This document shows, in pieces, positions 28,879 through 39,048 of a DNA stretch of 64,000 nt. Numbering within the stretch: position 1 is the first letter of the stretch; the number at the start of each line of letters is the position of its first letter. The notes under the pieces were generated by a model that made no database searches, was not told where the DNA came from, and saw nothing but the letters and a program-made list of their open reading frames with translations. A program made the translations under genes and the position numbers. This DNA is from Candidatus Gastranaerophilales bacterium (GTDB lineage: Bacteria; Cyanobacteriota; Vampirovibrionia; Gastranaerophilales; Gastranaerophilaceae). The stretch is taken from positions 124,001 through 188,000 of the forward strand of contig CALUYE010000001.1 of assembly GCA_944324945.1 (NCBI GenBank). The letters are read 5' to 3'.

Positions 28879-31271
28879 TGCCAAATATAAGTCCTCTTAC
28901 AAGCCGTATGATGACGGATAATACAAAACAAAACGAACATCAGGAAAAAATATATAAGCATTTAGCACAACATGCAAACGATGTTAAGCCAAATGAAGCT
29001 AAAGCAAGATTGGTAAAAGAAAACCCGCTTCAAAGTGCAGCAAGTGCCGTTAGTGATACTTTTAAAGACGGCAAAAACTTTGTAATCGCGGCAAAAACAG
29101 GAAAATTAAACGATAACAGCCTTGGAAGAATTAACGATTTAGGTTTAAAAGCAGGGGCTTTATTAATTGCAGGATTTTTAGCATCAAATGCAAAAACAAA
29201 AACAAACGCAATTATGCAGTTCCTTGGCGGTGCAACATTTTTATCGGTTATGTCTTTATGGCCAAAGATATTTATAAATCTTCCTGCAAGGTTAGTACAC
29301 GGTTTTAGAATTGATCAAAAATACATAAGTGCACAGGGCGATAAAAAGGATGTATATCTTGATAACCAATTTATACCAACGGATATATTCTCAAAACAAG
29401 AATTAAAAGATAACGCAAGACGCTCGGGAATTGATTATGAAAGCGAAAACGGCGAAGAAAAAATACTTCGCAAAATGCAAAAAACAGCTCTTCAAAACAG
29501 AACCCTATGGATGGCAACTGCAGGTTTTGCAACTCCTTTATTAACTGCCGTTATCGGAGATAAGATAGAACCTCTTGTTAAAAACGCTGTAATAAACCAT
29601 GACTTTATGAAATCAAGACAGGCTCTTGATAATATAGATGAAGTTTTCAGCGCTTCTTCTCCTATTGTTAAAAACAAAAAACAACTTGAAGATGTACTTA
29701 TGCAATATTCTTCAAAAAATCTTGATTCCGAAGGATTCAAGAAAATTTCTGCGGCTTTAAATATTGATGTTACTGATATTTTTAAAGATTCGGATGATTT
29801 AAAACCGATTAAAGATTTAAAATTCAATGTTGATGAAAACGCTCTTTCAGTTGCAAGAAACCAGGTTTCAATAATTAAAGACGAAGGCCTTGAAGAAACA
29901 TTGAAAAATGCATTTAGCGATTTAATTAAATCAAAAGATGCAACACAAGGCACAAGCGAAAGAGCAAAAGGAATATTTGCAAACGTTAAAACCATCCAAG
30001 AATCCCACAACGGCAAAATTGAAGCCGAAAAATTAGATGAAGTTATTAATAATTTTAAAAACTTAAAAGAAGGCAAAACTTATATTAAATTAAGACAAAT
30101 GCTGCAGGAAGCCTTCAATGCTCAAGGCAATAAAAAATTAACATCCTTAATAGATACAAAGCTTTCCAATATGGATTTAAAATATGATGATACTCCTTTC
30201 TTTGAAGCAGTAAGACAATACAATGACGAAATCTTAGCTTCCATAAGAGGAAGATTAAAAACTTATCTTGATATCTTAAATCCCGTTGCAGGTTCTAAAG
30301 ATGAATCCGTATATACAAAAATCTACAGACAGGCAATGGAGAAAATATTTAACAAAGCTAATTTTACAAAAGAAGAATTAACGGCTATAAAATTACCTCC
30401 GACAAATTCTGCACAGCATAAAACGCTTGACGTATTAACAAATTTCTTCCAAAGATTTGCTTCGTTATCTGATGAAGAATATACAAATGCAATCAAGGAA
30501 TTTGTTGTTGAAGATAAAGACAATATGGTCAGAGATTTTATACAAAAAATGTATTCAAAAGACAACAAAGAAACAATCTCAAAAATATGGCAGCTTCAAG
30601 GTGCAGCAAATAAACCCGTGTTTAATATTTTAAACAAAGGTTTGGATAGAGAAATAGAATCAAACATTGAACATTTCATGGATGTTGCAAACGCAAACAT
30701 TACCTCTATAAGATCCAAAGCTTTAATTTGTGCAAACCTTGAAAGACGTATAAAATCAGGCGAATTTGAAGAAGCCTTAAAATCCGTTAATACGATTTTA
30801 GGAAATAAATATATAGATGGCGCCGCCATAGATTCAATAGAAAATTATGCTAAAAACTTTGATACAATACCTGTTGAAGAATGGATTAAAAAAGCAAGAC
30901 AACTTGTATATGAAGGAACGGTTGCTGCTGATGCATGTAAATTGGAACTTGATTTTGAGCATTTCCAAACCTTAAAAAATGTTATATATGATAAAAATGC
31001 ATTTAAAAAAGAAATTGAATTGGTACCCGATCTTGAAGGATTGCTTAAAAACTTAATATTATCCAAAACAGGCGATGTTGATAATTCAAATATCACAGGT
31101 ATCTGCGGTCTTTTAAGAAACAGCGCCAAAGAAATGCTAAACAACAGAACATGGAAGAAAATATTCCTTCCGATGACATTTGCTTTAGTTGCGGTAACTT
31201 TATTGGTTCAACCGCTTTTCGGAAATATTAAAGATGAGTTCCCGGAAACAAAAAAGAAAGGTGCTAAATAA
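28878..31271 (+). CDS. Unknown large membrane protein, second gene of the GH13 cluster
   Basis: A 797-aa protein from the ATG at 28878, with GAGG 7 bases upstream (an in-frame GTG at 28872 is the alternative). N-terminus MPNISPLTSRMM is not a signal peptide. Two hydrophobic segments near residues 92-128 (LKAGALLIAGFLAS, FLGGATFLSVMSL) precede a conserved-looking LVHGFRIDQKYI segment; another hydrophobic patch lies near 215 (MATAGFATPLLTAVIG) and a final TM near 775 (FLPMTFALVAVTLLV). The roughly 500 residues between are predicted soluble and alpha-helical. It overlaps both neighbours by one base (TAATG) so translation is probably coupled. No known domain recognised. Confidence 0.7.
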   Translation: MPNISPLTSRMMTDNTKQNEHQEKIYKHLAQHANDVKPNEAKARLVKENPLQSAASAVSDTFKDGKNFVIAAKTGKLNDNSLGRINDLGLKAGALLIAGFLASNAKTKTNAIMQFLGGATFLSVMSLWPKIFINLPARLVHGFRIDQKYISAQGDKKDVYLDNQFIPTDIFSKQELKDNARRSGIDYESENGEEKILRKMQKTALQNRTLWMATAGFATPLLTAVIGDKIEPLVKNAVINHDFMKSRQALDNIDEVFSASSPIVKNKKQLEDVLMQYSSKNLDSEGFKKISAALNIDVTDIFKDSDDLKPIKDLKFNVDENALSVARNQVSIIKDEGLEETLKNAFSDLIKSKDATQGTSERAKGIFANVKTIQESHNGKIEAEKLDEVINNFKNLKEGKTYIKLRQMLQEAFNAQGNKKLTSLIDTKLSNMDLKYDDTPFFEAVRQYNDEILASIRGRLKTYLDILNPVAGSKDESVYTKIYRQAMEKIFNKANFTKEELTAIKLPPTNSAQHKTLDVLTNFFQRFASLSDEEYTNAIKEFVVEDKDNMVRDFIQKMYSKDNKETISKIWQLQGAANKPVFNILNKGLDREIESNIEHFMDVANANITSIRSKALICANLERRIKSGEFEEALKSVNTILGNKYIDGAAIDSIENYAKNFDTIPVEEWIKKARQLVYEGTVAADACKLELDFEHFQTLKNVIYDKNAFKKEIELVPDLEGLLKNLILSKTGDVDNSNITGICGLLRNSAKEMLNNRTWKKIFLPMTFALVAVTLLVQPLFGNIKDEFPETKKKGAK

Positions 31272-33226
31272 TGGAATATAACAACAAAATAATAAGTCCG
31301 ATACTGGCACAAAAATTAAATATTTCACAAAAACCCGAAGAAAAACAACAACAAGCACCTGTTCAAAATGCCAAACAAAAGCAATATCCCTACAATCCTC
31401 AGGTGGGTCAAAATGTTATTGCTCAAAATAAACAAATCCTTAGTCCTATTCTTGTACAAACTTTAGCTAACTCGGGAATTACAAAAACACAAAACAGCGA
31501 AAACGTACAAAAAACAGGCTTAACTTTAGCGCAACAAAGAGTTCCGGGCTATAAAAACGACTTAAAAGAAGCCCTAACGCACAACAGGGCAAAAATTTTA
31601 GCCGTAATTCCAAGAATTATGAATTCTCAAGATACAGACGGAAACGAATTAATTCAAGGTGATGAAATACACGGCAACTTTATAAATGCAGTCGGCAGGC
31701 TGGACGATATAAAAGAACTTGGTTTTGATACTCTTCACATGCTTCCTATTCACCCGACAGGTAAAACACACGCCATGGGAACGGCGGGTTCTTTATACGC
31801 CCCGAAAGACTTTTTAACGCTTGATCCCGAGCTTGTTGATGAAAATCCTGCTCCCGAAGCAAGAAAAAGAATTGAAGAAATATATCTTCAATTAACAGGC
31901 AAAAAACTTGAAAAAATGGATAAAAATGATCCCGATGTTGCTTTTGCACAATGCGCTTATCTTTTAGATGAATGCCACAAACGCGGAATCAAAGTAATGC
32001 TTGATTTACCTTCCTGTGCAAGCGTAGATTTTGCAAAAGAACATCCTGAAATGATGGCAAAAGAAGCGGACGGTTCCGAAAAAGTTCCTAAAGGATGGCA
32101 GGATATCAGAATGTTTAAGCCTTTTGAGGACGAACAAAACCGCGAATTAAACAAAGACCTGCTTGATATGCACAAAAAATACGTGGATATGTGTGTTAAG
32201 CTTGGTTTTGACGGAATAAGAGCAGATGTAGGCAGAGCAAAACCCGTTGAATTCTGGAATGTAATTATTAATTACTCTCATAATTTAGATCCTAATTTCG
32301 GCTGGTTAGCGGAAACCTATACCCATGAAGACGCTTCTCCTCAGTTAAATATGCCCTATGACAGACCTAAAGAGCTTTTAGAAGTAGGTTTTGATTCATA
32401 CTACGGTCAATATCACATATTCAAAGACTGGACGAAAGCCCAACAGTTATATGATTATGTAAAAGAAAACATAGAATTAAACAACGAAATAGGTCAAAAA
32501 TGCGGCGCAAAATCTTTAATCGGTTCTTTTGCAACCCATGACGATTCATCCCCGATGTTATACGGAGGCGCCCCCTGGGTAATGTTTACAACCGTTCTTC
32601 AAAGCATGCTTCCTCAAGTTAACCCTTATATGACAGACGGTGTTCAAACGGGAGATTATTATATATTCCCTTATGACCATGCACTTGTAGCACAAACGCA
32701 AACCGATAACAACGAATGTACCGTTCACACGGGAAGAATGGATATTTTTAACTATTCAAGAAAACCCGGAGGTCAATTCCCTGAAATTGCAAATGTTGTT
32801 AAATCCGCTTTTGCGCTAAGAAGCAATGAATATAATAAAATTAACGGAAGTTCAAGTTTAAAACTTAAAATGAATGATGCTCAAGATGTTATTACAAAAG
32901 GTTCATTCATCATACTTCCTACAAACAACCCTGAAATCATTGCTTTTGCAAGACATAAGGACGGAAAAACACTTTTGTTTATCGGAAACCGAAATGTTAA
33001 TAAAACAGTAGGCGGAACAATTCAAATACCCGGATTAAAAGAAAATCAAAAATTTAACAACTTAATCCCTGCCTATGGTGAACCCTGCAAAATTCAAAAC
33101 AATCAAAACGGCTCAATTAATGTTGAATTAGGAACAAGCAGAGCCTGCGTTTTTGAAATAGATAACCCTGATATTGAAAAATTATCTAAAGAAGAAAATG
33201 TGCTTCAGCAAAAATATATAGATTAG
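31271..33226 (+). CDS. GH13 alpha-amylase-family protein
   Basis: A 651-aa alpha-amylase-family enzyme acting on alpha-glucans or related substrates. After a Gln-rich N-terminal tail (1-90) comes the (beta/alpha)8 barrel: LGFDTLHMLPIHP, GIKVMLDLP, then nucleophile Asp319 in GFDGIRADVGR, acid/base Glu348 in WLAETY, and His423-Asp424 in FATHDD. The full catalytic triad is therefore present. A C-terminal beta domain follows (about 540-640). There is no signal peptide. The N-terminal tail contains two copies of a short motif (IISPILAQKL, ILSPILVQTL). TAATG coupling to the upstream membrane protein. Exact specificity cannot be read from sequence. Confidence 0.85.
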   Translation: MEYNNKIISPILAQKLNISQKPEEKQQQAPVQNAKQKQYPYNPQVGQNVIAQNKQILSPILVQTLANSGITKTQNSENVQKTGLTLAQQRVPGYKNDLKEALTHNRAKILAVIPRIMNSQDTDGNELIQGDEIHGNFINAVGRLDDIKELGFDTLHMLPIHPTGKTHAMGTAGSLYAPKDFLTLDPELVDENPAPEARKRIEEIYLQLTGKKLEKMDKNDPDVAFAQCAYLLDECHKRGIKVMLDLPSCASVDFAKEHPEMMAKEADGSEKVPKGWQDIRMFKPFEDEQNRELNKDLLDMHKKYVDMCVKLGFDGIRADVGRAKPVEFWNVIINYSHNLDPNFGWLAETYTHEDASPQLNMPYDRPKELLEVGFDSYYGQYHIFKDWTKAQQLYDYVKENIELNNEIGQKCGAKSLIGSFATHDDSSPMLYGGAPWVMFTTVLQSMLPQVNPYMTDGVQTGDYYIFPYDHALVAQTQTDNNECTVHTGRMDIFNYSRKPGGQFPEIANVVKSAFALRSNEYNKINGSSSLKLKMNDAQDVITKGSFIILPTNNPEIIAFARHKDGKTLLFIGNRNVNKTVGGTIQIPGLKENQKFNNLIPAYGEPCKIQNNQNGSINVELGTSRACVFEIDNPDIEKLSKEENVLQQKYID

Positions 33227-33277
33227 AAGTTAAACAATAGTCCTCATTGGGAAAATATTTAATATAAAGGATGAGTT

Positions 33278-36200
33278 ATGGATCTATCAATTAAATCAGT
33301 TCAAAATAAGAGACAACTTAATTTCCAAGGCGTAAAAGGAGACTATGATTCCAAAAATAAACAAGTCTTCAGATTCAGCCTGCCTTCATACAGACCTCAA
33401 AAAGAAACACCCTATCTTGAAATATCACTTTTGGATTATAGGGCAAATGCGGCAGGTACGCTTGGTTCAAACAGCTTTGTCCCGACTGAGACAGTATTGA
33501 TTCCCTTTGAAGATAAAACAACAATCGAACTTCCGCAGGAAGAATTTAAAAAAGCGGGATATAGCGCTTTTGCTTACAGATATGTTTTTGAAGATAACAA
33601 CGGAAACAGAAGATACGCCCTTGACGGATTTAAAAAAGAAAGATTGTTCGGCGAAGAAAAAAATATAATCGAAATAGGCGATAACTTTGGCGTTACTCCG
33701 ATTTCAGGCGCAATGCGCCACTCGTTTATAGATTCTGACGGGATTGACGTTTCAAAATTAAGCAAAAAAGATAAAGAATTCATAAGAACACACCACAATA
33801 AACTGGGAGGTTCCATTAAAGGTTTAACTTATCTTTTAGATAACGGATATTTTGACGGATTTAAATATATAATCTCAACCCCCGATATCGGCGCAGACCC
33901 GACTTCTCCTCATAAATACTGGCCAAATAACCAATATCAGTGTACTAATATGAATGATTTTAAAGAATTTAACTTTGAATTATTCAAAAACGGAAAAGGA
34001 TACGTGGCAGACGGCGCTTTTACTTCTCAAAGCCTTCAATCTCCTTTGGTTGCACATGTTTTAAAGTGGGGTGATAAATCTCCTTTTTATAATATGTTAA
34101 AAATGGAAGACGGCATTAATCTGGGTATAATTCCTGAAAACGAAGAAGCCTTTAATCACACAGGGGTTAAAATTATCAACGCTCCAAACAGCGAACACTA
34201 TGATAAAAAGAAACCTGTTTTAATGCAGTTTTATGACGATAGAACAACATCCGAAAAGCAAATTGAAGATACCGTTCATACAATAGACAAATACGATATA
34301 CCAAACCCTGAGGACCATTATGATATCGTATCTTATCAGGATCTTGTTCATCCTTTTTATTTTGAAATTCCCGATGATGAGATTGATAAAAAACTTGCTC
34401 TTTTTGAAAAAAATGAAAATCATCTTTTGTTAAAAGATTTATCCGATGAAGAACTTGATACTCTTTTAAATGTCGGACACGGAAATATAGTAAACCGCTA
34501 CAATGCTTCAAGTGCAACATATTGGGATGGCAATGTCGATATTATAAAAATGAATTTATCAAACCCCAATAAATCAAACAAGGCAAATGTTGAAGGCTTT
34601 TTCAATGCAAGAAAATACCTATACGGCGTTGCAACATTCTGGAGCGAAACAATACAAAGCGATTTAATTTTTAACAGTGCAAAATTAAGCGAAAAAGAAA
34701 TTAATGAAATCGCTCTAAAAAACGGCATAATGCAGGATGAATACGAAGCAATAAAAGAAAATATAAACAATAAAGAAACGTATTTACCTGTTTTAGCTCA
34801 AAATAAAACCGTTGAAGATTATGTAAGCGAATTTCCGCTTCAATCAATCGAAACAAGCCCTGAATTAAGCGCAATATTTTCACAACCTCAATTCAATGAA
34901 CAATTTCTTAAAGGTAAAACTTTTGATAATATAGTTGAATTAACCAAAAAAGCAATAAAAGAAATTACACCCGATAAATACAAAGACAACGATGAATATC
35001 TTACATACGTTACAAAAACCTGTGCAAATGAAATAATAAGACATATTCTGATTTCTGCTATGGCGCCTGATGCAATTAATTCAGACGGCTCTGTCGATTT
35101 AGAAAAATTAAAAAACAAAGCAACACTTAAAAGAATGTTAAAATTACCTCCGATATCAGTAGAAGATGAAAGAGCTCAGGTAATTTCAAGAATAAGAAAA
35201 AATTTAAACTCTATAGATATAAAAAATATAAAAAACAAACTAAGAAAAGATTTAAAAAATATCTCTCTTGAAAACTTCAAACTTGCAGATTCGGTTGTAT
35301 TACAGGGTCATGGAGGTTTGAATTGGAGATTTGATGCCGCTAAAGATATTGCAGACCTTGAATCAATTAAAAATTCCACATCAACCTTTAAAGATTTATG
35401 GAGCGGAACCGTGGATATACCGGGTACACAGCAATTCTGGGGTGAATTTATTAAAAGAATTAAAACCTATAATCCTTCTTCTTATATCATTGCCGAAATT
35501 ACAAACTTCGGAGACGGATTATACAATTGGAACGATTTTGATTCCATGATGAATTATGATTCCAGGGTTGCAAATTCTTATTTAAATAAAATCAAAGACG
35601 ATATTGATGAAGTTGAAAATCCTACAAGCACACTATCACAGCTTGCAAATACATTCTGCGATGAAACGTTGAGTTTTGATAAAAGAAGAGAAGCTTTCAG
35701 ACGCGCAATGAATATCATGGATGAAAACAGATCTAAATATCCTACATACGATAATTACGAAAACAATCTTCCTTACGCAAAAGAACAAGAATTCCTTGAA
35801 CAAATAGGAGCTTCAACAAGCTCAAATTACGATAAATATTTTAATAATTTATCGGCTTTTGTGGGGGTAGATCCTGAACATGGTTACGATAAGAGCTATT
35901 GCGCGGGAGATGTCAGAAATCTTAAAAATAAAACAAACGAACTTATAAAATATTCTCAACCGAATTCGATTCTAATGTCTCATGTATTCACAGACAACCA
36001 CGATAAACCCCGCCTAATGCATACATTGCCTTTAGATATGGGTTTATATGTTAAAAGTATCAATCAAGATGCCATAATAAACGGAAACAGTATAAAAAAT
36101 CTGGATAGAGACGCAAAAGAAAAAATATACGAATTAACAGGCAGAGGCGATTTTGAAAATTTAAACTCTCAGGCTGTTGCTGTTGGTCTTATGATGAAAT

Positions 36201-37078
36201 CTAAAATTGAAGAAATATACGTAAAAGACAAAAAAACACAAAAACAGCTTCTTGATGCCCTAAAAGACCTTGTAAACGGTAAAAAAGGCGATAAATTCGT
36301 ATACAGACGCGCAAGCGCGTTCGGCACACTGCCTTATGAAATAACTGTCAGAGATTTATTTAAAAAAGCAGGAATAGATGATGAAGGTGAAATAAAAAAT
36401 TTCATTTACAGTATCGTTCAAGAACCCATGGATTTACAGGATAAGTTATGGCAGGTAATGAATGCACTAACAGGTGTTCCTACCATGTATTACGGTACGG
36501 ATTACGCTCAAACAGGCTATGAATCAGCAAGTAAAAACCTATGGTGGGGAAACAGAGACAGAGCCCGCCATGAAAGAAGAGATGACAAATTATATGCTCC
36601 TTTCTATAATAAAATGCATGCAATTTCGTCTTTATCTTTAATGCCTAATTTATCGGCTTTAAAAAACGGGTATCCCGAGCTTTTAAATATTACTTCAAAA
36701 GATAATCTTGATTTCTTCCCGATATATCGCAAAGACGAAAGAGGAAGCGAAGTTTTAAGCGTTATTACAAATTACGGAATTGAGAAAAATCAACCGTCAA
36801 GAAATCATAAAAAAACTTCAACCAGACAAAAAACGGATTCTATTAAAATCGCAAACGACAGATACTGTCCTTTTGAAGAAGGTCAAATTTTAAAAAGAAT
36901 GGTCTATGATGAATCTTTAGGAAAATACGTAAGCGAAGATGTTGACTATGAAGTAAAAGGCGCAGCTATTACAAGAAAAGACAAAAAAGACATAGTAATT
37001 GATGACAGTGTTCTAACATTCTATGTTGATAAACAAAGAAATCCTAAATTTGTTCCGTCATACTACGGTGCGCGTTAG
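33278..37078 (+). CDS. Very large GH13-like protein
   Basis: A 1266-aa GH13 relative, about twice the usual size. Residues 1-20 carry an NFQG motif (KRQLNFQGVKG), then a possible N-terminal beta domain. The catalytic residues are recognisable: Asp686 in LNWRFDAAKD, Glu740 in IIAEITN and His908-Asp909 in TDNHDKPR, with TMYYGTDYAQTG further on. The first barrel strands seem to be split by large insertions (residues about 330-660), and an insert of about 100 residues lies between Glu740 and Asp909. No signal peptide or TM segment. AAGGATG precedes the ATG. It ends the four-gene run. Probably active on a glucan, but the insertions are unexplained. Confidence 0.8.
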   Translation: MDLSIKSVQNKRQLNFQGVKGDYDSKNKQVFRFSLPSYRPQKETPYLEISLLDYRANAAGTLGSNSFVPTETVLIPFEDKTTIELPQEEFKKAGYSAFAYRYVFEDNNGNRRYALDGFKKERLFGEEKNIIEIGDNFGVTPISGAMRHSFIDSDGIDVSKLSKKDKEFIRTHHNKLGGSIKGLTYLLDNGYFDGFKYIISTPDIGADPTSPHKYWPNNQYQCTNMNDFKEFNFELFKNGKGYVADGAFTSQSLQSPLVAHVLKWGDKSPFYNMLKMEDGINLGIIPENEEAFNHTGVKIINAPNSEHYDKKKPVLMQFYDDRTTSEKQIEDTVHTIDKYDIPNPEDHYDIVSYQDLVHPFYFEIPDDEIDKKLALFEKNENHLLLKDLSDEELDTLLNVGHGNIVNRYNASSATYWDGNVDIIKMNLSNPNKSNKANVEGFFNARKYLYGVATFWSETIQSDLIFNSAKLSEKEINEIALKNGIMQDEYEAIKENINNKETYLPVLAQNKTVEDYVSEFPLQSIETSPELSAIFSQPQFNEQFLKGKTFDNIVELTKKAIKEITPDKYKDNDEYLTYVTKTCANEIIRHILISAMAPDAINSDGSVDLEKLKNKATLKRMLKLPPISVEDERAQVISRIRKNLNSIDIKNIKNKLRKDLKNISLENFKLADSVVLQGHGGLNWRFDAAKDIADLESIKNSTSTFKDLWSGTVDIPGTQQFWGEFIKRIKTYNPSSYIIAEITNFGDGLYNWNDFDSMMNYDSRVANSYLNKIKDDIDEVENPTSTLSQLANTFCDETLSFDKRREAFRRAMNIMDENRSKYPTYDNYENNLPYAKEQEFLEQIGASTSSNYDKYFNNLSAFVGVDPEHGYDKSYCAGDVRNLKNKTNELIKYSQPNSILMSHVFTDNHDKPRLMHTLPLDMGLYVKSINQDAIINGNSIKNLDRDAKEKIYELTGRGDFENLNSQAVAVGLMMKSKIEEIYVKDKKTQKQLLDALKDLVNGKKGDKFVYRRASAFGTLPYEITVRDLFKKAGIDDEGEIKNFIYSIVQEPMDLQDKLWQVMNALTGVPTMYYGTDYAQTGYESASKNLWWGNRDRARHERRDDKLYAPFYNKMHAISSLSLMPNLSALKNGYPELLNITSKDNLDFFPIYRKDERGSEVLSVITNYGIEKNQPSRNHKKTSTRQKTDSIKIANDRYCPFEEGQILKRMVYDESLGKYVSEDVDYEVKGAAITRKDKKDIVIDDSVLTFYVDKQRNPKFVPSYYGAR

Positions 37079-37086
37079 GTAATTAT

Positions 37087-37115
37087 AAAGGCGTAAATAA
37101 AATGTTTACGCCTTT
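37087..37115. terminator. Bidirectional terminator after the GH13 cluster
   Basis: GGCGTAAA (37090-37097), 7-base loop, TTTACGCC (37105-37112), flanked by AAA and TTT. It closes the plus-strand cluster and also suits the convergent HCP-like gene. Confidence 0.85.
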
Positions 37116-38596
37116 TATTCAATAACATTAATCTTAAATTCGTTTTTTAGCGCCTGAATAACATGCGGATTTATTAAAAGATTTGAACAGCTTGCAAGAT
37201 AAATTTCAATTTCTTTATTTAACAACAATAAAACCACTTCCAGATTTAACAAATTACATTCAGTAAAAAGAAGAGTTATTTTAATTTGTTTTTCTTTTAA
37301 AATGTCAATGAAATTAAATAATTCATCAAAAGGATATTGAAGATTTATTATTTTATCTCCATCCTTAAAAGTTTGTTTTTTATTTATTTCACCTATTATT
37401 ACAGCTATTTCATCATCATTATATTCAATAAAATCTTTTTTTAATTTTTCTGAATCATATTCAATTTTATGAGGCTCTTTTTTTTCAAAAGTACGATTTT
37501 CTTCTTTTAAAGCAGATAAAACTAAAGGCGAATAGTCATTATTATTGATATCTGAAACGCGTTCAAAAGAAATTATTTTATTTGAAAAAATTTCACCTCT
37601 GTATAAATTATCGATTTTTTGTACAAAATTTTGGCTTAAAAGAATCGAACCTTTGAAAATTGAAAAATCGTATTCCGGGTTATCTGTTCCGATATGACCT
37701 TTTAAATATTTATTTTCTTTAAAAAAGGGATACAAATGAGCATTTATTAAAGCCTGGTTTGTGTAAACGTTAATTTTTTCTTTTATTTCGCTGTCGAGTT
37801 CAATTTTCTCAATTGTATTTAAAACATTCTCAAGCTCGTCTAAATCACTTCCCGAAACAAGTATTCCAAAGCCTTTATAAATATTTTCACAAACGGTTGT
37901 CGCTTCTTTTTTTCCGTATTTTTCTTCAAGACACAATTGCAATTCTTTTTTTATTTCAAGTGCAACAGCTGAAAATTCAAGTATTCTTCTTTTGATTTTT
38001 TCATCTCTTATTGAGTACCCGTTTGTTAAAGAGAAAAACCTGATAATTTCATAGTTAAATTTTTCTATTTTTTCGCTTGTGCAGTTATTTAACTTTTTAA
38101 TTTTTAAAACATTTATAGCGCTTAATTTTGCAAAAAATGCAATTAAATCAAACATGTAAAGCTTATTTTTGTTATCGTTTTTTTGTTTATTTGAAATAAA
38201 AATCTGCGAATTTTCAATTAAATCCGAAATTGTTGTATTTTCTTTAATATCAACACTGCTTGTTATCATTTCACAGGGCAAATTATATATATTACAGTAT
38301 TCAATATATTTTTCTTTTATTTCTTTTTTTAAAGAATTAAGATTTTTAACAAGTTTTAAATATTTTATCTTATTAAAACTGGTATTAATAAGAAAAATCG
38401 ACAATCCTTCAATCAATTTTTCCATGGCTTTTTTATTTATCAAATTAAACTCTTTTAATTTAACAATATAAAAAGATGTTTCTCTTATTTCGTTTAATAA
38501 AATTTCATACAATGCGCTCACGCTCGGATGTATTGAACATACTCCGATTGAGCTGCAGGAATTTTGTTTTAAAAGGTTTTTAAAATATTCATACAT
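37115..38596 (-). CDS. Hybrid-cluster-protein homologue lacking most cluster ligands
   Basis: A 493-aa relative of hydroxylamine reductase/hybrid cluster protein (HCP). Alignment by eye is clear: SCSSIGVCSIHPSVSAL near the N-terminus corresponds to the GCTxxGVCGK region, then ILVSGSDLDELE, INVYTNQALINAHLYP, GSILLSQNFV and RGEIFSNKII follow HCP order. But the hybrid-cluster ligands are changed: His of GHD is Ser, Glu of the EMLPAHGYP segment is Ala, Cys of TTNC is Phe, and the later GCDG, LGCGKYR and GQCNDA cysteines are absent. Only the late Glu (LFTECN) may remain. Of the four N-terminal cysteines two are kept (14 and 20). Probably not a classic reductase. Confidence 0.68.
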   Translation of the reverse strand: MYEYFKNLLKQNSCSSIGVCSIHPSVSALYEILLNEIRETSFYIVKLKEFNLINKKAMEKLIEGLSIFLINTSFNKIKYLKLVKNLNSLKKEIKEKYIEYCNIYNLPCEMITSSVDIKENTTISDLIENSQIFISNKQKNDNKNKLYMFDLIAFFAKLSAINVLKIKKLNNCTSEKIEKFNYEIIRFFSLTNGYSIRDEKIKRRILEFSAVALEIKKELQLCLEEKYGKKEATTVCENIYKGFGILVSGSDLDELENVLNTIEKIELDSEIKEKINVYTNQALINAHLYPFFKENKYLKGHIGTDNPEYDFSIFKGSILLSQNFVQKIDNLYRGEIFSNKIISFERVSDINNNDYSPLVLSALKEENRTFEKKEPHKIEYDSEKLKKDFIEYNDDEIAVIIGEINKKQTFKDGDKIINLQYPFDELFNFIDILKEKQIKITLLFTECNLLNLEVVLLLLNKEIEIYLASCSNLLINPHVIQALKNEFKINVIE

Positions 38597-38769: not shown

Positions 38770-39048
38770 TTGTTCAAAGGTTATGGACACAAATTTAGCG
38801 ATGAAAAATTTGAATGCCAAACGCAAGGTGTAATTTCTGATTCAATTGTTCAAAACTGGACACTTCAGGCACTTGCTTGTTATAAAATTCATTCAAATTG
38901 CGATCTTTGTTCAATCAAAAAAGCTAAATATTCTTTCAAATGCCAAATGAGGCGCATTGTTGATATTCTATTAAAAACACAGGGATTGCCTGATGAAAAA
39001 GCTATAATCGAGCAATCAAAAAAATCAAAGATTGATGAAGTTGCATAA
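38770..39048 (+). CDS. Small Cys-rich protein with TTG start
   Basis: A 92-aa unknown. It begins at a TTG with a strong GGGGGAA about 6 bases before it, and no in-frame ATG occurs until late in the protein, so the TTG start is well supported. Cysteines cluster in CYKIHSNCDLCSIKKAKYSFKCQM, a spacing that could bind zinc or an Fe-S cluster. No signal peptide. It lies between the HCP-like gene and the amidohydrolase-like gene. Confidence 0.65.
   Translation: MFKGYGHKFSDEKFECQTQGVISDSIVQNWTLQALACYKIHSNCDLCSIKKAKYSFKCQMRRIVDILLKTQGLPDEKAIIEQSKKSKIDEVA

Follow-up and report, generated by a model that had tools for sequence, protein, structure and literature searches.

A nearly family-wide homologue of the hybrid cluster protein in the Gastranaerophilales without hybrid-cluster ligands and with a gained pair of conserved cysteines

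Results

An HCP homologue and its neighbours

The DNA analysed here, a stretch of 64,000 nucleotides referred to throughout as the window, comes from a member of the Gastranaerophilales, gut bacteria that are non-photosynthetic relatives of the Cyanobacteria. On its reverse strand, positions 37115..38596 hold an uninterrupted reading frame encoding a protein of 493 aa, which was identified from its matches to NCBIfam, the PDB and an HCP profile, and from its ligand columns, as a homologue of the hybrid cluster protein (HCP) without hybrid-cluster ligands. It is flanked on both sides by genes of the opposite strand. Divergent from it (38770-39048, forward strand) is a gene for a 92-aa cysteine-rich protein with the pattern C, CxxC, C. 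When 39 genomes from across the order were searched, 38 had a homologue of this small protein, to which neither Pfam nor NCBIfam gave a match; it was considered as a partner of the HCP homologue and set aside, because their adjacency is confined to the window's genus. On the other side, two large forward-strand genes (31271-37078) converge on the HCP homologue. They encode proteins of 651 and 1266 aa, with glycoside-hydrolase matches that are marginal at best, and 14 of the 17 wide loci examined in the genus have retained them next to it. Five loci from several genera (L074, L075, L082, L093 and L103) have a glycogen synthase (GlgA) cluster gene adjoining, or close to, a decayed copy related to the window protein. 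The GlgA-cluster neighbours, taken with the amylase-like ones here, may mean that the gene has long been linked to glycogen genes or that these loci share an ancestral position.

The window protein matched the NCBIfam HCP model TIGR01703 over residues 10-374 with an E value of 2e-36, the score of 125.6 bits falling well short of the curated HCP cut-off for this model (360.8 bits). A sequence search of the PDB returned 8cnr (E 8e-14), and a Pfam search of the window protein with E values up to 10 gave no Prismane match. When a profile built from 17 window-type relatives was compared by hhalign with one built from 13 intact HCPs, the two aligned over 479 columns (probability 100%, E 5.2e-44), which indicates that the C-terminal part is also homologous; a further hhalign comparison gave E 5e-80. 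Judged by these profiles, the window protein is homologous to HCP over nearly its whole length and may have retained the HCP fold. The original prediction, that the reading frame is intact and the fold kept over nearly the full length, thus holds for the frame and, on a sequence basis, for the near-full-length match, but the window subtype has a deletion within the C-terminal domain that takes in the column of Cys433. An AlphaFold2 model, made from two sequences only (the window protein and L032), was poor (pLDDT 43), and a search of the viral_contigs set for further homologous sequences found none.

Loss of the hybrid-cluster ligands

The ligand register was taken from a MAFFT alignment of the window protein with E. 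coli Hcp, using what we take to be the E. coli ligand positions; the E. coli letters at those positions agree. Twelve residues were scored, eight for the hybrid cluster (seven ligands and a conserved Lys) and the four N-terminal Cys, and a copy was called intact when it had all 12. None of the eight hybrid-cluster residues is kept in the window protein. The column of E. coli His249 holds Ser250 (codon 37847..37849; this and all codons given below are on the reverse strand), that of Glu273 holds Ala282 (37751..37753) and that of Cys317, the first hybrid-cluster Cys ligand, holds Phe324 (37625..37627), in agreement with the original prediction, which had placed Ser, Ala and Phe at His244, Glu268 and Cys312 of the Desulfovibrio protein. 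The columns of Cys405 and Cys458 hold residues other than Cys, that of Cys433 is deleted, and Glu492 and Lys494 correspond to Asn448 and Leu450 respectively. The nine cysteines of the window protein are at residues 14, 20, 101, 108, 172, 222, 236, 447 and 470. The segments equivalent to Desulfovibrio Cys406, Cys434 and Cys459 had been said to lack cysteine, and indeed there is none between residues 237 and 446; rescue by ligands in shifted positions is therefore excluded, as this is the region in which counterparts of E. coli Cys317, Cys405, Cys433 and Cys458 would sit. The suggestion that the late Glu, Glu494 of the Desulfovibrio protein, may be kept had to be abandoned, since two aligners both place Asn448 in that column; in most relatives the nearby Glu446 gives way to Gln, Lys, Thr or some other residue.

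At the N-terminus, two of the four cluster cysteines remain, as had been proposed, so that the four-cysteine Fe-S site is incomplete. These are the third and fourth, Cys14 (38555..38557; E. coli Cys18 column) and Cys20 (38537..38539; E. coli Cys25 column), both of which are Cys in 27/27 rows of the genus and in 78/87 and 79/87 rows of the family, respectively.

Fixation of the losses in the genus

A homologue was present in all 27 of the other genus genomes searched, 48-64% identical to the window protein and without internal stops, one of them being split at contig ends. Among 27 full-length genus proteins, 25 keep none of the hybrid-cluster residues and two (L024 and L027) keep a single residue, a Glu at the first of the Glu ligand columns; the Cys, His and Lys residues of the hybrid cluster are absent from all 27. 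The predicted loss of the hybrid cluster is thus borne out for the window protein, and the alignment of homologues from its relatives shows the ligand losses to be fixed in these 25 of 27. For close pairs within the genus, dN/dS by the Nei-Gojobori method was 0.05-0.13, a rough estimate as the synonymous differences are large. Together with the family-wide occurrence of decayed copies described below, this sign of purifying selection and the fixed losses support the earlier proposal that the protein is under selection for something other than hydroxylamine or NO reduction.

Distribution and phylogeny of decayed copies

We surveyed 318 genomes of the order, each at least 90% complete, with TIGR01703. 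Among the matches listed, 307 of the 318 genomes had a match and 110 had one over the cut-off. For the family of the window, again among the matches listed, 296 of 306 genomes had an HCP-family match, 101 of them over the cut-off, and by hand count 195 of the 306 had sub-cut-off matches only; within these 195, the best matches in three genomes (G279, G290 and G297) were short fragments, possibly of intact genes. Ten genomes of the family, chosen because they lacked a TIGR01703 match, also gave nothing in a profile search. In a sample of 244 genomes from the phylum, the matches listed included no decayed copy from outside the order; those below the cut-off were either copies of the family itself or contig-end pieces (G427 and G342).

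When 66 hand-picked genomes were searched with a profile, full-length decayed copies were recovered in most genera, and in three genomes (G133, G134 and G183) decayed copies occurred in tandem. One locus (L090, 4620-9485) has three tandem copies and two others (L077 and L078) have two, some of which differ in their cysteine losses. Of 111 aligned proteins, 19 keep all 12 scored residues and 92 do not. Across the 87 decayed copies of the window's family, 61 have none of the eight hybrid-cluster residues and no copy has more than two. In a quick tree these 87 copies formed one group apart from the intact HCPs (SH-aLRT 100), with the window protein inside it, and a more careful tree of 47 rows recovered the subclade of the window, a group of 34 rows, at 100/100. 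Five copies from two sister families (L043, L049, L085, L124 and L125, of f6 and f7) have two or three of the eight residues left and were placed between the decayed and intact groups in the quick tree. Core residues of the middle domain (G249, Y278, G300, F311, F314 and G316) are among the best conserved.

Gained cysteines

Two cysteines that are foreign to intact HCPs are among the best-conserved columns of the decayed copies in the family. Cys447 (37256..37258), directly before the former late Glu ligand, is found in 84/87 family rows (97%), the intact copies having Tyr or Phe at this column. Cys470 (37187..37189) falls on the Thr of the GPTLPAF loop, a column with mostly Thr or Ser in the intact copies, and is found in 83/87 rows (95%). 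A third cysteine conserved in the decayed clade, Cys101 (38294..38296), occurs in 26/27 genus and 77/87 family rows, with a gap or Ala in most intact HCPs.

Cys447 and Cys470 were lost jointly in three lineages (L035, L116 and L123), and a single loss within the pair occurred once (C470, in L023). By row, this co-loss gave a Fisher p of 4e-5; by tree, 3/3 independent pairs agreed, a number too small for the sign test to reach significance. For Cys14 and Cys20 the co-loss was likewise strong by row (Fisher 5e-8) and weak by independent tree pairs. Loss of the N-terminal pair was not associated with loss of the C-terminal pair (p 0.28-1.0), and a clade of six rows that has lost both C14 and C20 keeps C447 and C470, a pattern that favours two dithiol units over one obligatory four-cysteine site. 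All four cysteines are present together in 74 of the 92 decayed copies. In five loci (L113, L114, L118, L119 and L122) Cys14 and Cys20 are absent, a second Cys stands beside Cys470 (CC) and a GrxC-like glutaredoxin gene lies upstream.

Glutaredoxin genes beside decayed copies

A glutaredoxin gene lies directly upstream on the same strand in 26 of the 87 decayed copies of the family, representing 16 of 36 genera. The encoded proteins are of 74-121 aa and the intergenic gap is -14 to 27 bp. By comparison, none of the 19 intact HCPs has an adjacent upstream glutaredoxin (Fisher 0.003, with the caveat that rows are related and the tree implies five changes). The adjacent glutaredoxins are of two types, the first GST_N-like and the second GrxC-like, found in separate subclades; the active site is CPYC, CPFC or CGYC in 20 of the 26 and lacks the second Cys in the other six. 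Both Cys447 and Cys470 were kept in 25/26 decayed copies with the adjacent glutaredoxin and in 58/66 without it (92 decayed copies), from which we claim no association; one copy, L123, is glutaredoxin-linked yet has lost both.

No adjacent glutaredoxin was found among the 34 rows of the window subclade, and the window gene itself has the divergent 92-aa gene as its neighbour rather than a glutaredoxin operon. A Pfam search found a single-copy GrxC-like gene elsewhere in 26 of 27 genomes of the window's genus, and a single-query search of the window genome for the first type of glutaredoxin, run with no positive control, found none. Any glutaredoxin link of the window's own copy would accordingly be drawn from its relatives.

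Discussion

The original prediction was of an HCP homologue selected for some binding, sensing or scaffold role. What is new beyond it is the pair of gained cysteines, Cys447 and Cys470, and, in other genera, an operon with glutaredoxin; these give the new role some content. The reading that we favour, at a little less than an even chance, is that the window protein is a neofunctionalised HCP scaffold acting through thiol chemistry with glutaredoxin. The HCP scaffold would have been reused as a thiol protein. Cys447 and Cys470 would make up one dithiol/disulphide unit at the former pocket, their proximity being read from homologous columns only, and Cys14 and Cys20 a second dithiol pair. These dithiols would be reduced by, or exchange with, a glutaredoxin, supplied by an operon partner in many genera and by a gene elsewhere in the genome in the window's genus, and the protein might then serve as a redox sensor, a thiol carrier or a redox-controlled binding partner. 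In a fuller version of this, a metal-free (or re-metallated) HCP fold would have become a thiol switch or carrier coupled to glutaredoxin and present almost throughout the family, with the active site replaced by a new dithiol in the same pocket and the intermediates still visible in sister families; we regard it as possible but doubtful.

The conserved cysteines could also be explained if C14, C20, C447 and C470, perhaps with C101, bound a substitute metal centre in the vacated pocket or close to it, either zinc or a [2Fe-2S] or [4Fe-4S] cluster, with the glutaredoxin delivering or repairing the cluster. The joint presence of the four in most decayed copies would fit such a centre, as would the origin of C14 and C20 as Fe-S ligands and the position of C447 immediately before the former hybrid-cluster Glu column, and an altered cluster in the CODH scaffold, that of CooS-V, is a precedent according to the part of PMC9311411 drawn on here. 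However, a single four-cysteine site should decay as a whole, and the pairs have been lost separately: the six-row clade keeps C447/C470 without the N-terminal pair, and the reverse is true of L035 and L116. We therefore consider a replacement metal centre unlikely on balance.

A scaffold or binding protein for a protein or small molecule, with no redox role, would be in keeping with the conservation of the middle-domain core and with a window subclade that has no adjacent glutaredoxin. The cysteines would then be structural and the glutaredoxin operons incidental, which sits poorly with two cysteines having been both gained and conserved almost throughout the family, and with two types of glutaredoxin lying directly upstream in separate subclades; we think this unlikely as well, to much the same degree as the metal centre.

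Far less probable than either is that the protein remains a reductase of the HCP type whose hybrid cluster is reduced or re-ligated. The homology to HCP, the two remaining N-terminal cluster cysteines and the up to three of eight residues kept in other branches of the order could be cited for it, but the complete loss of the eight residues, the deletion of the C433 column and the long cysteine-free segment bring this idea close to refuted on the alignment, and hydroxylamine or NO reduction is probably absent from the window protein. A decaying pseudogene or an assembly artefact has a negligible chance and is refuted by the stop-free homologues throughout the genus (one split at contig ends), the low dN/dS and the family-wide presence.

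It is by their metal clusters that HCPs and CODHs are defined, and a conserved HCP without ligands that is nearly family-wide shows the scaffold to be useful in its own right; the decayed family is a system in which the use of the bare HCP scaffold could be found, and the partly decayed copies of the sister families make the order of ligand losses testable. The Pfam Prismane model matched all eight decayed relatives that were tested, above its cut-off, so that such genes are at risk of being annotated as NO or hydroxylamine reductases.

Comparison with known systems

A literature search for a cluster-less HCP found no report. In the portion of PMC13056359 available to us, which analyses 1545 HCP sequences beside CODHs, a ligand-less HCP is not mentioned, and the excerpt of PMC10502027 used here gives the seven hybrid-cluster ligands as conserved in all HCP classes. 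With the hybrid cluster protein (prismane, hydroxylamine reductase; TIGR01703/PF03063) the window protein shares near-full-length homology, two of the four N-terminal cluster cysteines and the core motifs of the middle domain; it differs in having lost all the hybrid-cluster residues, in its shorter C-terminal domain and in the gain of Cys447 and Cys470. The neighbourhoods differ as well, decayed copies in many genera having a glutaredoxin upstream whereas intact HCPs have, in several loci, an Rrf2 regulator, a 4Fe-4S protein or a cupin nearby. The same genome also carries an intact HCP on another contig (521 aa, 12/12 residues, above the TIGR01703 cut-off), a superfamily paralogue 27% identical to the window protein over the matched part.

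CooS-V of Carboxydothermus hydrogenoformans (CODH-V, a clade D CODH) resembles the window protein in being a member of the superfamily without its expected chemistry, as far as the excerpts of PMC9311411 and PMC10502027 describe it. It has an altered ligand set and still holds an Fe/S/O cluster (PMC9311411, in part). The difference is one of extent: CooS-V, on the same partial account, lacks one Cys, keeps its Fe/S/O hybrid cluster and turns over hydroxylamine slowly, whereas the window protein is without all of the ligands.
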